Shown: positions 48,342 through 52,729 of the stretch, one piece after another
Layout of the letters: each line of letters starts with the position of its first letter
Position numbering within the stretch: the stretch's first letter is position 1
Assembly: GCF_000376945.1 (NCBI RefSeq)
Contig: NZ_AQXU01000022.1
Coordinates: forward strand, 186,001-250,000
Origin: Leeia oryzae DSM 17879
GTDB taxonomy: Bacteria > Pseudomonadota > Gammaproteobacteria > Burkholderiales > Leeiaceae
Reading direction: 5' to 3'
Length of the DNA stretch: 64,000 nt
Notes under the pieces: generated by a model
Told to the model about the DNA's origin: nothing
Database searches by the model: none
The model's input: the letters and a program-made list of their open reading frames with translations, nothing else
Position numbers and translations under genes: made by a program

Positions 48342-49094
48342 TTATTTTTCAGGGCAACCTGACAAGATGGCTTTCAAGGCTGGCAGGTCGGTAATTTCGA
48401 CCTCTTTGTTGCTGACCCGGATAAAGCCCTGATCCTGGAACTTGGAGAAGCTCCGGCTAATCGTTTCCAGCTTCAGCCCCAGATAGCTGCCAATCTCTTC
48501 ACGTGTCATCCGCAAAATGAAATTTTTGGATGAGTAACCACGCAAGGCAAAACGCTGGGAAAGGTTGATCAGGAAGGCAGCCAGACGTTCTTCCGCTTTC
48601 ATGTTACCCAGCAGCATCATTACGCCATGGTCACGGACGATTTCACGTGACAACACTTTGTAGAAATTATGCTGCAAAGATGGAATATTGCGACTGAGCT
48701 GTTCGAGCTCGGTAAACGGAATTTCGCAGACTTCGCTGTCTTCCAGTGCGATGGCACTGCACGTATGCGAGTCACTGCTGATGGCATCCATGCCCAGCAG
48801 TTCACCTGCCATCTGGAAACCCGTTACCTGTTCGCGGCCGTCTTCCGAGACAACGCTCATTTTGAAGAAGCCAAGGCGAACGGCGTAGAGCGATGACATC
48901 GGGTCACCTGCACTATAGAGCTGTTCACCTTTTTTGATACGGGTGCGCTGACTGATCAGTGTTTCCAGCTGGATCATTTCTTCTGAAGATAAACCCAGTG
49001 GCAGGCAAAGTTCTCTCAAGCTACAGCTAGAACATGCTACCCGAAGATTTTTCAGGGATACTTCTTGGATCGGAATGGTACCGGTTGTGGTCAT
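48342..49094 (-). CDS. fnr: FNR-type oxygen-sensing transcriptional regulator
   Basis: A 250-residue CRP/FNR-family regulator. All four [4Fe-4S] ligands are present: C21, C24, C30 (VACSSCSLRELC) and C112 (DSHTCSAI). The cNMP-like barrel is followed by the recognition helix EEIGSYLGLKLETISRSFSKFQ, whose E..SR set recognises TTGAT half-sites. It activates anaerobic genes when the cluster is intact without oxygen. Two perfect FNR boxes lie in the divergent gap upstream. Confidence 0.96.
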   Translation of the reverse strand: MTTTGTIPIQEVSLKNLRVACSSCSLRELCLPLGLSSEEMIQLETLISQRTRIKKGEQLYSAGDPMSSLYAVRLGFFKMSVVSEDGREQVTGFQMAGELLGMDAISSDSHTCSAIALEDSEVCEIPFTELEQLSRNIPSLQHNFYKVLSREIVRDHGVMMLLGNMKAEERLAAFLINLSQRFALRGYSSKNFILRMTREEIGSYLGLKLETISRSFSKFQDQGFIRVSNKEVEITDLPALKAILSGCPEK

Positions 49095-49341
49095 TACAGC
49101 TCAGCCTGTTACGAGTCTTGCTAATTCTACTCAAATTTTGACTTTACTTATACATTATCCAATCTTTTTTTTGCTGAATACGTCTTTGGGTACTTGTTTA
49201 TTTGTGCAATTCTCCACTAATCACTTTTGTAATCATTTATCTTGATTGTTGAAATCAATTATTTTGATGTCTATCGTGAGTGGCGGGGCGGTTAAACTGC
49301 ATCCTGACGAAGATGCTCACCAAGAGGGGTGCGGGTTCCCA

Positions 49342-49355
49342 TTGATACGGATCAA
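49342..49355. promoter_or_regulatory. FNR box 1
   Basis: TTGATACGGATCAA matches the FNR consensus TTGAT-N4-ATCAA exactly. Its centre is 33 bp upstream of the second box, about -74.5 relative to the start site proposed from box 2. Confidence 0.85.
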
Positions 49356-49374
49356 GCGCCAACCCTCAGCAGGG

Positions 49375-49388
49375 TTGATGCATATCAA
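49375..49388 (+). promoter_or_regulatory. FNR box 2 with -10 element (class II promoter)
   Basis: TTGATGCATATCAA is a second exact FNR consensus. A CATAGT hexamer at 49411-49416 lies at the distance expected for a -10 element when FNR is centred at -41.5, so transcription would begin near 49423 and run into the hemN-like gene. Confidence 0.85.
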
Positions 49389-49448
49389 CACCTGAAAGGA
49401 CTTAAAGCGTCATAGTTCAGCCACGATATTAAGAGATTCATTGTAGCT

Positions 49449-50717
49449 ATGACGCCACTTCGCCTTGATCAATACGATAGCGTAAATGTTGATTTCCCCT
49501 CTGTGGTTGTACCCAGAGCCTGGAATCATCCATTGATCCTGTCGCTTGATGATATTGCGGTTTTTCCTACCGCCAAACAGTACCGCCAGCCCCGGTTGAA
49601 TGATGCTGCACTATCCCGTGCGTGGCATAAGCCGGCTGTTGGCCGTTTGGCCTTGCCGCTCAGTCTGACGGAAGTCTGGCCTGACCAGGTGGTGGACGAG
49701 GCCGGGTTGACGGCTGCCATTGCGGCGGAATGGCAAATGCGACATGACACGCTTGATGGCCGCAAAGTGAGATCGACCACGTTGCAACTGCCGGTTGCCG
49801 GGCTGGATGCAGAGGCCATTATCGCGCGCTGGTGGCAAAGTTCCGGCAAGGCAGTCACCGAACTGGGCGGGCAACGCCAGATTCGTTTGCGTTTTTATGG
49901 CGAAACAGGCCGACAGCTGGTGGATTTGCCTGAGGGTGTGGATGTTTATCTGCAGGCGATCAACCCGCAGGATATTCATTACCATGCGACGCAATTGTCG
50001 GCCCTATGGCGTTTAAGAAGCAATACGACAGGTCGTTTGTCGGTGGATATCCTGATCGGGGCGGGTGAGGCGGTTGGCGTGCCAGCCATCGAATATGTCC
50101 GCAGCCTGATGGATTTGTCGCCCGAGCGGGTTTGCCTGAGGCTGCCGCCGCTAAATACCTTGAGTGCAACCCGTCTTGGGCAGCAGAAAGATGCGCTTTA
50201 CCATGTGATCCAGCTGCTGGAAGACAAAGGCTATGGTCATCTGGCGGGGGGCTGGTTCGTTAAGCATGGTGATCCGTGGTTGTCTGCCCAGCGGATTGGC
50301 CGGTTGATTCTGAACACGACCGGTAACTGGGAAACCATGAATGTTGACTGGATTTCGGTCGGGCCGTCCGCGTGCTCCATTATCGGGACGGTACAGTCCT
50401 GGAACAGCGAAGAGGCACGGTATATCGAGCAAATCCAGGAAGGGCGTTTGCCTTTGGTGACGGCCAGAAAGTTGCCTCTGGACATGCTGGTCCGTCGCGC
50501 GGTCGTGGAGCAGTTGCTGTGCCTGGGGTATCTGGATTTCCTGACGTTTGAGCTGGCGTATTTCATCCAGTTTGACCAGTACTTCGCGGCCGAGCTAAAA
50601 CGCCTGCAACCACTGATTCAGGCCGGGTTGCTAGAGAAACGCCAGCGAACCCTGTGGTTGACCGAATCTGGCCGGTTACTGGCTGACCATATTGCCAGAC
50701 AGTTCTTCTCTGCCTGA
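49449..50717 (+). CDS. HemN-like protein lacking the radical-SAM cysteine motif
   Basis: A 422-residue intact protein aligned by eye with oxygen-independent coproporphyrinogen dehydrogenase HemN over most of its length. The middle shows SVDILIGAGEAVGVPAIEYVRSL (HemN: NIDLIYGLP...), then NVDWISVGPSACSIIGTVQSWNS and a C-terminal winged domain LRRAVVEQLLCLGYLDF-like block ending WLTESGRLL. The N-terminal CxxxCxxC that binds the [4Fe-4S] cluster and SAM in HemN (Cys62/66/69 in E. coli) is missing; only three scattered cysteines remain. It therefore should not perform radical-SAM decarboxylation. A role as a heme-binding or heme-delivery protein, or in anaerobic regulation, is conceivable. Two FNR boxes drive it and fnr is divergent. 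Confidence 0.85.
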   Translation: MTPLRLDQYDSVNVDFPSVVVPRAWNHPLILSLDDIAVFPTAKQYRQPRLNDAALSRAWHKPAVGRLALPLSLTEVWPDQVVDEAGLTAAIAAEWQMRHDTLDGRKVRSTTLQLPVAGLDAEAIIARWWQSSGKAVTELGGQRQIRLRFYGETGRQLVDLPEGVDVYLQAINPQDIHYHATQLSALWRLRSNTTGRLSVDILIGAGEAVGVPAIEYVRSLMDLSPERVCLRLPPLNTLSATRLGQQKDALYHVIQLLEDKGYGHLAGGWFVKHGDPWLSAQRIGRLILNTTGNWETMNVDWISVGPSACSIIGTVQSWNSEEARYIEQIQEGRLPLVTARKLPLDMLVRRAVVEQLLCLGYLDFLTFELAYFIQFDQYFAAELKRLQPLIQAGLLEKRQRTLWLTESGRLLADHIARQFFSA

Positions 50718-50887
50718 AATTGATAACCTGCTTGTACATGGTTCAAACCTGATTCATCAAGGATGGTTTGAACCATGAAATCCCCGTTTGCCGTGATCGT
50801 GTCATCCCTGTCTTTATCTGGTACTGCATAAGCCTGTCGCTTGCGGTAAAATCCCATCTGTCTGTCATGTACTGATCGGAATTTCTG

Positions 50888-52729
50888 ATGTACCAGGTCG
50901 CCTACCGTTTATCGTTGTCCCAGCCTCACGCCCACCTGATTGATGTTGAACTCGACATTCAGCATCCGGCATCCGAAGGCCAAAAACTGTTTTTGCCAAC
51001 CTGGATTCCAGGTTCTTATCTGGTTCGCGAGTTTTCACGACAGATCGTGACTATTTCTGCAACGTGCGGGCAAGTGCCGGTTGCGATCCGCAAACTGGAT
51101 AAAGCAAGCTGGCAACTGTCTGCGGTGTCCGGCCCGGTGACTGTCCGTTATCAGGTTTATGCGTTTGACGAGTCTGTGCGTACCGCTTACTTTGATGCCG
51201 ACCGCGCGTTTCTGAATCCGGCAGCACTTTGCCTCGGTGTTGAAGGGCAGACAGACGTGCCAGCGAGCCTGGAGATTATCCCGCCAGCTGGTGATGCCTA
51301 TCAGCAATGGGAAGTGGCTACCGGCTTGCCAAGAGAGAATGCTGATCAGCTGGATGACTGGAGTTTTGCACCTTTTGTGGCAAGCAATTATGACCATCTG
51401 ATTGATTGTCCGCTTGAATGTGGTGTTTTGGAGCGCTACCGCTTTGATGTTTGCGGTACACCGCACGACATGGTGATTTCGGGTGGTCATTATGGGGACG
51501 CCAAACGCCTTTTGGCAGATACGGCCAGTATCTGTGAAACCCAGATCCGCTTTTTTGCAGAGGATGCCGCCAAGCCTGCGGCACCCTATGCACGTTATGT
51601 GTTTTTGCTGAATCTGGTGGCAGATGGCTATGGTGGACTGGAGCATCGTAACTCGACTGCGTTGATTGCCAACCGGGCGGACATGCCGGGCAAGGATGAA
51701 CCCGTAGAACCGACGAGTGGCTACCAACAGTTACTGGGGTTGATCAGCCACGAGTACTTCCATAACTGGAACGTGAAACGGCTGAAACCTGCTGCCTATG
51801 CGCCATATGATTTGTCTCGGGAGGCGTACTCCCGGTTGTTGTGGGCCTTTGAAGGGATCACCAGTTATTACGATGATTTGATGCTGGTTCGTGCCGGGGT
51901 GATTTCCGAATCGCAGTATCTGGAGACGCTGGCCCGCAATATCACCAATACCTTGCGCAGCCCCGGGGCGCTGAAGCAGAGTCTGGAAGATGCCAGTTTT
52001 GATGCATGGATCAAATATTATCGCCAAGACGAGAATAGCCCCAATGCATTGGCCAGTTATTATGTCAAAGGCGGGTTGTTTGCCTGTCTGCTGGATCTGA
52101 CGTTACGCAAGCAAGGAAAGTCATTAGACGGTATCATGCTGGCGCTATGGCACCGGGTGGGCAAATTGTTCGACCAGACCGGGCAGGGGCTGGACGAGTC
52201 GGCTTGGGAACAAATGGCCATTGAGGTGACCGGGCTGCCGTTGCAATCTTTCTTTGATACGCATTTGCGTACCGCGAGTGATGTGGTTTCTCCGCTGCTG
52301 GCATTGTTGCCCGAATTTGGCGTGGCTGTGCAAAAGCGCATAGCAGAAGGCAGTACAGACAAGGGTGGCAAATATCTGGCCAAAGTGCCAAAGGCCAAAC
52401 CGGTACTGGGTGCGCGGTTGGGTGCAGACGCGCTTGGCATTCGGGTGCAGACCGTCTATAACCAGAGTGCCACTGAAAAAGCCGGGCTGCATGTGGGCGA
52501 TATCCTGATTGCGCTGGATCATGTGAAATTGACGCATGGCAGTCTGGATGCCACGCTGGGACGCTACCAGCCAGGCCAGACCGTGACCGTGCATGCTTTC
52601 CGCAAAGATGCGCTACGCAGTTTCGCACTGACACTGGATGCACCAGCCGAAGATACGGTTGGACTGCAAGTGAACCAAGATTTACCTGTAACATCTAATT
52701 TACGTCAGGCCTGGTTAAAGCCGGCCTGA
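50888..52729 (+). CDS. M61-family peptidase with PDZ domain (glycyl aminopeptidase type)
   Basis: A 613-residue zinc peptidase. The motif HEYFHNWN gives H288, E289 and H292, with E322 in WAFEGITSYYDD as third ligand. A beta-rich N-terminal domain precedes it and a PDZ domain (about 500-590, TEKAGLHVGDILIALDHVKL) follows. Family members cleave N-terminal glycine or alanine or act as broader aminopeptidases. No signal peptide, so cytoplasmic. It is followed 95 bases later by pepN. Confidence 0.9.
   Translation: MYQVAYRLSLSQPHAHLIDVELDIQHPASEGQKLFLPTWIPGSYLVREFSRQIVTISATCGQVPVAIRKLDKASWQLSAVSGPVTVRYQVYAFDESVRTAYFDADRAFLNPAALCLGVEGQTDVPASLEIIPPAGDAYQQWEVATGLPRENADQLDDWSFAPFVASNYDHLIDCPLECGVLERYRFDVCGTPHDMVISGGHYGDAKRLLADTASICETQIRFFAEDAAKPAAPYARYVFLLNLVADGYGGLEHRNSTALIANRADMPGKDEPVEPTSGYQQLLGLISHEYFHNWNVKRLKPAAYAPYDLSREAYSRLLWAFEGITSYYDDLMLVRAGVISESQYLETLARNITNTLRSPGALKQSLEDASFDAWIKYYRQDENSPNALASYYVKGGLFACLLDLTLRKQGKSLDGIMLALWHRVGKLFDQTGQGLDESAWEQMAIEVTGLPLQSFFDTHLRTASDVVSPLLALLPEFGVAVQKRIAEGSTDKGGKYLAKVPKAKPVLGARLGADALGIRVQTVYNQSATEKAGLHVGDILIALDHVKLTHGSLDATLGRYQPGQTVTVHAFRKDALRSFALTLDAPAEDTVGLQVNQDLPVTSNLRQAWLKPA

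Follow-up and report, generated by a model that had tools for sequence, protein, structure and literature searches.

In Leeia oryzae DSM 17879, the position divergent from fnr is occupied by a relative of hemN whose product lacks the catalytic motifs of HemN. The protein is conserved in three species of the genus, its promoter has the same layout in all of them, and a HemN of the catalytic type is encoded elsewhere in the genome. The gene lies in a stretch of 64,000 nucleotides that was analysed as a whole (the window). A hemN that once stood beside fnr may have become an FNR-activated, non-catalytic accessory protein whose binding partner is a tetrapyrrole or HemN itself, and from the sequence evidence we give this reading about an even chance.

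The gene for the motif-less protein (49449..50717, + strand) is an uninterrupted open reading frame of 422 codons plus a stop, as clean as the initial annotation had described it, and its product matches TIGR00538 and the structure 1olt. The product contains three cysteines (229, 309, and 358), of which only 229 and 358 are common to all three orthologues of the genus. The absence of the radical-SAM motif CxxxCxxC, also claimed at the outset, was confirmed in the 422-codon frame, in all six frames of positions 49301–50900, and in both congeneric orthologues (3/3 motif-less proteins). The initial annotation had named a motif in another frame, displaced by a sequencing error, as grounds for refutation; the six-frame search rules out such a hidden motif. 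A sequencing artefact is also ruled out by the two congeneric genomes, G002 and G001, which encode the protein at 70% and 46% identity.

The loss extends well beyond the cysteines. The reference set consisted of 40 distinct canonical hemN loci obtained from searches with the motif-less protein and with TIGR00538, and is not a random sample; the duplicates L003, L039, L062, and L063 were left out, as was L031, which failed the start-motif pattern. L031, a HemN-like gene of genome G016, carries CxxxCxxC without the YP start pattern and may represent a divergent HemN type. The canonical HemNs carry CxxxCxxC, E.DPR, and YGLP (40/40 each), RYTSYPT (39/40), RNFQGY (38/40), and GGGTPT (36/40), counts that are partly built in because the set was selected for the cysteine motif and the YP motif. 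Relaxed patterns of these six motifs found none of them in the three motif-less proteins. The longer motifs GPRYTSYPTA and RNFQGYTT, as named in an excerpt of PMC10320005, match by these relaxed patterns in 39/40 and 38/40 canonical HemNs versus 0/3 motif-less proteins. Across 127 positions each kept in at least 95% of the canonical HemNs, the three motif-less proteins jointly keep 7 of the 78 before residue 300 of the Leeia oryzae HemN and 22 of the 49 after it. By residue range of that HemN, the counts are 1/11 (1–60) and 4/50 (60–235), where the alignment is forced, 2/17 (235–300), and 22/49 (300–480). The C-terminal part has also lost the GMDH residues and RNFQGYTT, and the C-terminal tail of HemN is missing. 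New blocks such as GYGHLAGGWF and RTLWLTESGRLLAD are conserved in the genus.

Homology to HemN is demonstrable only for about residues 180–419, and the initial description of a full-length relative was too strong. TIGR00538 matches the motif-less protein with 77.1 bits over residues 246–419 (67.4 and 60.9 bits for the two orthologues), and its cut-off is 324.95; by this model the protein falls outside HemN. HMMER detects similarity to HemN only in residues 245–419, the stretch also matched by a profile built from the three orthologues. The PDB search gave HemN as its sole strong match (1olt, E 1.8e-17, residues 245–417), the second, weak one being a ribosomal protein (E 0.0008). PF06969 (HemN_C) matches residues 345–411 with 30.1 bits against a gathering cut-off of 24; its scores for the orthologues are 25.0 (P0003) and 18.9 (P0002, below the cut-off). 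Profile-profile alignment with hhalign extends the similarity back to residue 180 (99.7%, residues 180–419), but residues 181–245 taken by themselves give a borderline score of 26.1 (100 shuffles: mean 13.1, maximum 26.6). Residues from about 181 to 419 (49989..50705, +) thus correspond to the end of the HemN barrel and the C-terminal domain, with RNFQGYTT and YGLP absent. No match at E ≤ 1 was found in PADLOC or PHROGs. A single-sequence AlphaFold model has a mean pLDDT of 33.8, too low to be usable.

The N-terminal 180 codons (49449..49988, +), which include the genus-conserved RQPRLNDAA..RAW, match nothing in the PDB at E ≤ 1 and nothing in Pfam above cut-off. Against HemN they score 17.3, a value reached by 39 of 200 column shuffles (mean 15.4, sd 2.9). 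In the same test, the first 180 residues of the HemW of this genome (362.7 bits against the TIGR00539 cut-off of 205.4) score 217 (99.88%) as a single sequence. A forced global alignment with HemN spans the whole length at 99.9%, which must rest on the C-terminal part because residues 1–180 score like shuffles. For the same reason, and given the HemW control, the cofactor barrel has either been worn beyond recognition or been replaced. Descent of residues 1–180 from HemN is without sequence support, the reversed segment scoring higher (20.8) than the forward one, and this counts against the preferred explanation. It is what would be expected if the protein were a chimera (a new fusion of the C-terminal part of HemN to another N-terminal domain) instead of an eroded HemN, as is the good conservation of the N-terminal 61 residues within the genus. 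The donor of such a domain did not appear, however, among 396 order genomes outside the genus (E ≤ 0.001), in the PDB (E ≤ 1), or in Pfam (cut-off), and the stretch before the matched region has nearly the length found in HemN (244 versus 263–264 residues). We regard a chimera as unlikely.

The pattern of conservation points to a protein under selection. Over the whole gene, identities at codon positions 1, 2, and 3 are 0.72/0.82/0.38 between the Leeia oryzae gene and that of G002, and 0.53/0.66/0.38 between it and that of G001. The non-synonymous distance to G002 is 0.25 for the motif-less gene, 0.20 for the HemN of the genus, and 0.055 for fnr; saturation of the synonymous sites prevented the calculation of dN/dS in most comparisons. 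Residues 1–61 are 84% (G002) and 56% (G001) identical, and residues 62–180 only 50% and 27%; residues 346–419 reach 92% and 70%, so the two ends are constrained and the former barrel region weakly so. In the C-terminal stretches that can be matched, the constraint is inverted relative to HemN: the HemN stretch equivalent to residues 346–419 is 60% and 51% identical, and residues 261–345 are 71% and 54% identical versus 81% and 84% for the equivalent HemN stretch.

These figures make it very unlikely that the gene is a functionless hemN relic in decay. Such a relic would have lost its catalytic motifs with a catalytic hemN elsewhere, as is seen here, and between Leeia oryzae and G001 the codon positions of the poorly conserved residues 62–180 barely differ (0.41/0.45/0.37). 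The frame is nonetheless free of stops in 3/3 species at 46–70% identity, codon positions 1 and 2 are more conserved than position 3 over the whole gene, the promoter layout is identical in the three species, and residues 346–419 are more conserved than the corresponding part of a real HemN. An active enzyme with a different chemistry and a different cofactor would account for the genus-wide conservation of GYGHLAGGWF and RTLWLTESGRLLAD, but the protein matches no other enzyme family above cut-off in Pfam or NCBIfam, nothing but HemN strongly in the PDB, and offers just two cysteines conserved in all three species; this is very improbable and the least likely of the readings weighed here. The description of a selected, FNR-boxed, motif-less relative of HemN is supported by the codon-position identities and by the promoter layout common to 3/3 species.

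The divergent neighbour is fnr, as first annotated (48342..49094, − strand; NF008365, 255 bits, cut-off 228). The initial annotation had considered this arrangement unusual, which did not hold. At 27 of the 40 canonical loci, hemN and fnr are transcribed divergently, 2 loci are arranged in another way, and 11, including the three of the genus itself, have no fnr in the examined flank. In the 400 bp preceding the YP landmark, 36/40 of these loci have an FNR-like box (≤1 mismatch) and 12/40 an exact one. The oddity is that the gene in the slot has lost its catalytic motifs, not the arrangement itself. No fnr match was found around the catalytic hemN of the genus in 16 kb (Leeia oryzae), 8.5 kb (G001), and 8.5 kb (G002). 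A LysR gene and fnr adjoin the motif-less gene in each of the three genomes. On the downstream side, only G002 has the same M61 peptidase gene and the same next large gene as Leeia oryzae, and G001 has a cation:proton antiporter gene there. When eight loci of other families were compared, only fnr and hemN were shared side by side, and two further weak hits were not such neighbours. Neither the Rfam scan nor the tRNA scan of the window gave a hit.

The two perfect FNR boxes reported upstream of the gene are the only exact TTGATNNNNATCAA sites of the window (shuffle mean 0.06; 0/100 shuffles with two). The 3.79-Mb genome has six such sites versus one for the pattern read backwards, and two of the six belong to this promoter. 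The proximal box TTGATGCATATCAA (49375..49388, +) ends 60 bp before the ATG in Leeia oryzae, 61 bp in G002, and 59 bp in G001, the start in G001 being taken at L008:1495, where it aligns with the other starts (an earlier ATG in frame lies at 1453). The distal box TTGATACGGATCAA (49342..49355, +) does not keep its position: the second box of G002 has one mismatch and a different location, and in the G001 region a single box was found. Of the two boxes, the proximal one recurs in 3/3 species. The intergenic region between fnr and the motif-less gene has shrunk to 89 bp in G001, with the box retained at one mismatch; this box (L008:1405–1495 region) is 16 bp away from the start of fnr, on its upstream side, and might affect fnr too.

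A -10-like hexamer, CATAGT (49411..49416, +), follows the proximal box after exactly 22 bp and is identical in the three species. If CATAGT is the -10 element, the proximal box is centred at -41.5. The same layout occurs at true hemN genes. Across 36 canonical loci (the three of the genus included), similarity to TATAAT peaks at a gap of 22 among the gaps of 14–33 tested, with a mean of 2.61 of 6 versus 1.86 at the next-best gap and at least four matches in 11/36. At this gap the catalytic hemN genes of the genus have TATGAT (Leeia oryzae), TAGTCT (G001), and TATGAT (G002); the FNR-like box of the Leeia oryzae catalytic hemN, with one mismatch, lies at L003:2995–3008. With CATAGT as the -10 element, these features would fit a class II FNR-activated promoter for the motif-less gene. 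A generic sigma-70 scan did not call the promoter of the motif-less gene, which is consistent with FNR taking the place of the -35 element.

The TIGR00538 search of the genome returned a catalytic HemN (601.6 bits), HemW, the motif-less protein, and, weakly (11.6 bits), one further match. HemF is also present. The motif-less gene occupies the fnr slot in 3/3 genomes of the family examined, all of one genus, and these genomes carry an intact hemN at another locus, likewise behind an FNR-like box. Both points that the initial annotation had proposed to check, a canonical hemN elsewhere and homologues sharing the missing motif together with the fnr neighbour, were found. Outside the genus, the searches returned other types of protein. 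In the order sample (399 genomes, E ≤ 1e-25), 11 genomes match, namely the three of the genus and eight others with 91–98 bits confined to the HemN-like part; the open frames of these eight contain CxxxCxxC. The class sample (E ≤ 1e-24) gave 5/369 matches, Leeia oryzae and four of the C-terminal type with CxxxCxxC, and the phylum sample (E ≤ 1e-28) gave 2/398, both of the genus. Searched for by itself at E ≤ 0.001, the N-terminal part was found in 3 of the 399 genomes of the order, all of them already known to have the protein. No motif-less protein was thus found above these thresholds in the other sampled genomes (396 of the order, 368 of the class, and 396 of the phylum); the samples overlap, and the thresholds could miss more distant relatives of this kind. 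Independent motif-less relatives are possible in order genomes for which three or four TIGR00538 matches are listed (e.g., G020 and G033). Genomes G020, G033, G066, and G109 have at least four matches each, and the extra ones could include odd HemN relatives. No relatives were found on viral contigs. On plasmids, 22 records match, none over more than 80% of the query, and the best 8 of the 22 cover 53%.

In a tree of the C-terminal part, the motif-less proteins form a single clade (100/100) whose stem is about 6 changes per column long; the tree does not place this clade beside any hemN. The HemNs of the genus form a separate clade in this tree, whose bootstrap had not settled, and group with L052, L053, and L060 (96/76, unstarred; L060 on a long branch), all without fnr in the examined flank. 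There is a hint, and no more, that the catalytic hemN of the genus is a copy of another line. L060, the HemN of G089, combines the top TIGR00538 score among the matches listed with the longest terminal branch of the C-terminal tree.

Descent of the motif-less gene from a hemN beside fnr is inferred from its position, its promoter, and its C-terminal homology. The ancestor would have been a hemN of the kind kept divergent from fnr in many genomes of the order. Once a catalytic hemN was established elsewhere, the copy beside fnr may have shed its radical-SAM machinery and become non-catalytic. At low oxygen, FNR would bind the box at -41.5 and activate transcription in the class II manner, with the layout seen at true hemN genes. 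The product would act as an anaerobic accessory factor. Its ligand would be a tetrapyrrole, either coproporphyrinogen or heme, or else the catalytic HemN, presumably bound by the N-terminal segment together with the C-terminal domain; both match the positions where HemN is thought to hold its substrate. Heme handling, as suggested in the initial annotation, would be a putative role. The accessory role is proposed because the ends of the protein are constrained; since RNFQGYTT and the GMDH residues are lost, tetrapyrrole binding does not follow from the sequence.

A perfect FNR box also lies at L048:1501–1514 (G000:C23:218147–218160), at the junction of the genes for a cytochrome D1-domain protein and a c-type cytochrome, and a second D1-domain protein is encoded near it. 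This suggests cd1-type denitrification in the organism and, because of the place of the box, makes a denitrifying context likely. A bolder version of the accessory-protein reading, offered tentatively and judged somewhat unlikely, is that of a genus-specific, neofunctionalised pseudo-HemN that abandoned catalysis, retained its substrate-holding ends, and is co-induced by FNR and either carries the tetrapyrrole of the catalytic HemN or controls HemN during anaerobic (denitrifying) growth.

The locus is an apparent natural case of a radical-SAM gene that has lost its catalytic motifs and kept its regulatory slot, with an active paralogue elsewhere under the same FNR layout. If it does bind a tetrapyrrole or HemN, the protein would make it easier to distinguish the parts of HemN that hold substrate from the barrel that holds the cofactor, and the proteins of heme trafficking, about which little is known, would gain an anaerobic member. 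No described case of a hemN beside fnr without catalytic motifs was found in the open-licence literature, searched mostly through titles and openings of abstracts. HemN relatives without iron are not new, because NCBIfam holds the PsgB family (TIGR04419, a HemN-related non-iron pseudo-SAM protein), for which the literature search returned no paper. By the name of its model, PsgB is also a HemN relative lacking the iron site; the motif-less protein, however, has no TIGR04419 match at E ≤ 1, and in this genome only the HemW and HemN loci match that model, both below its cut-off. The heme chaperones HemW and CgdH2 are HemN-type proteins as well. The CgdH2 of C. jejuni is described, in the same excerpt of PMC10320005, as a HemN-type protein that binds heme, has no HemN activity, and retains the LYxHxPFCxxxCxxCxF motif. 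The motif-less protein differs from these chaperones in lacking CxxxCxxC and any HemW (TIGR00539) match at E ≤ 1. HemN itself (TIGR00538, 1olt) resembles it over residues ~180–419 and, at many hemN loci, in the fnr neighbourhood and FNR promoter layout, and differs in that the motif-less protein stays below the TIGR00538 cut-off and lacks six catalytic patterns and the C-terminal tail. Burkholderia pseudomallei has been reported to carry two HemN paralogues per genome, one of them beside a CRP/FNR-family gene (BPSL2366/BPSL2365); an excerpt of that report describes the paralogue as an oxygen-independent coproporphyrinogen III oxidase in which a Tn5 insertion impairs anaerobic growth (PMC8191878). 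Compared by this description, it shares with the motif-less gene a HemN-type product and a CRP/FNR-family neighbour.
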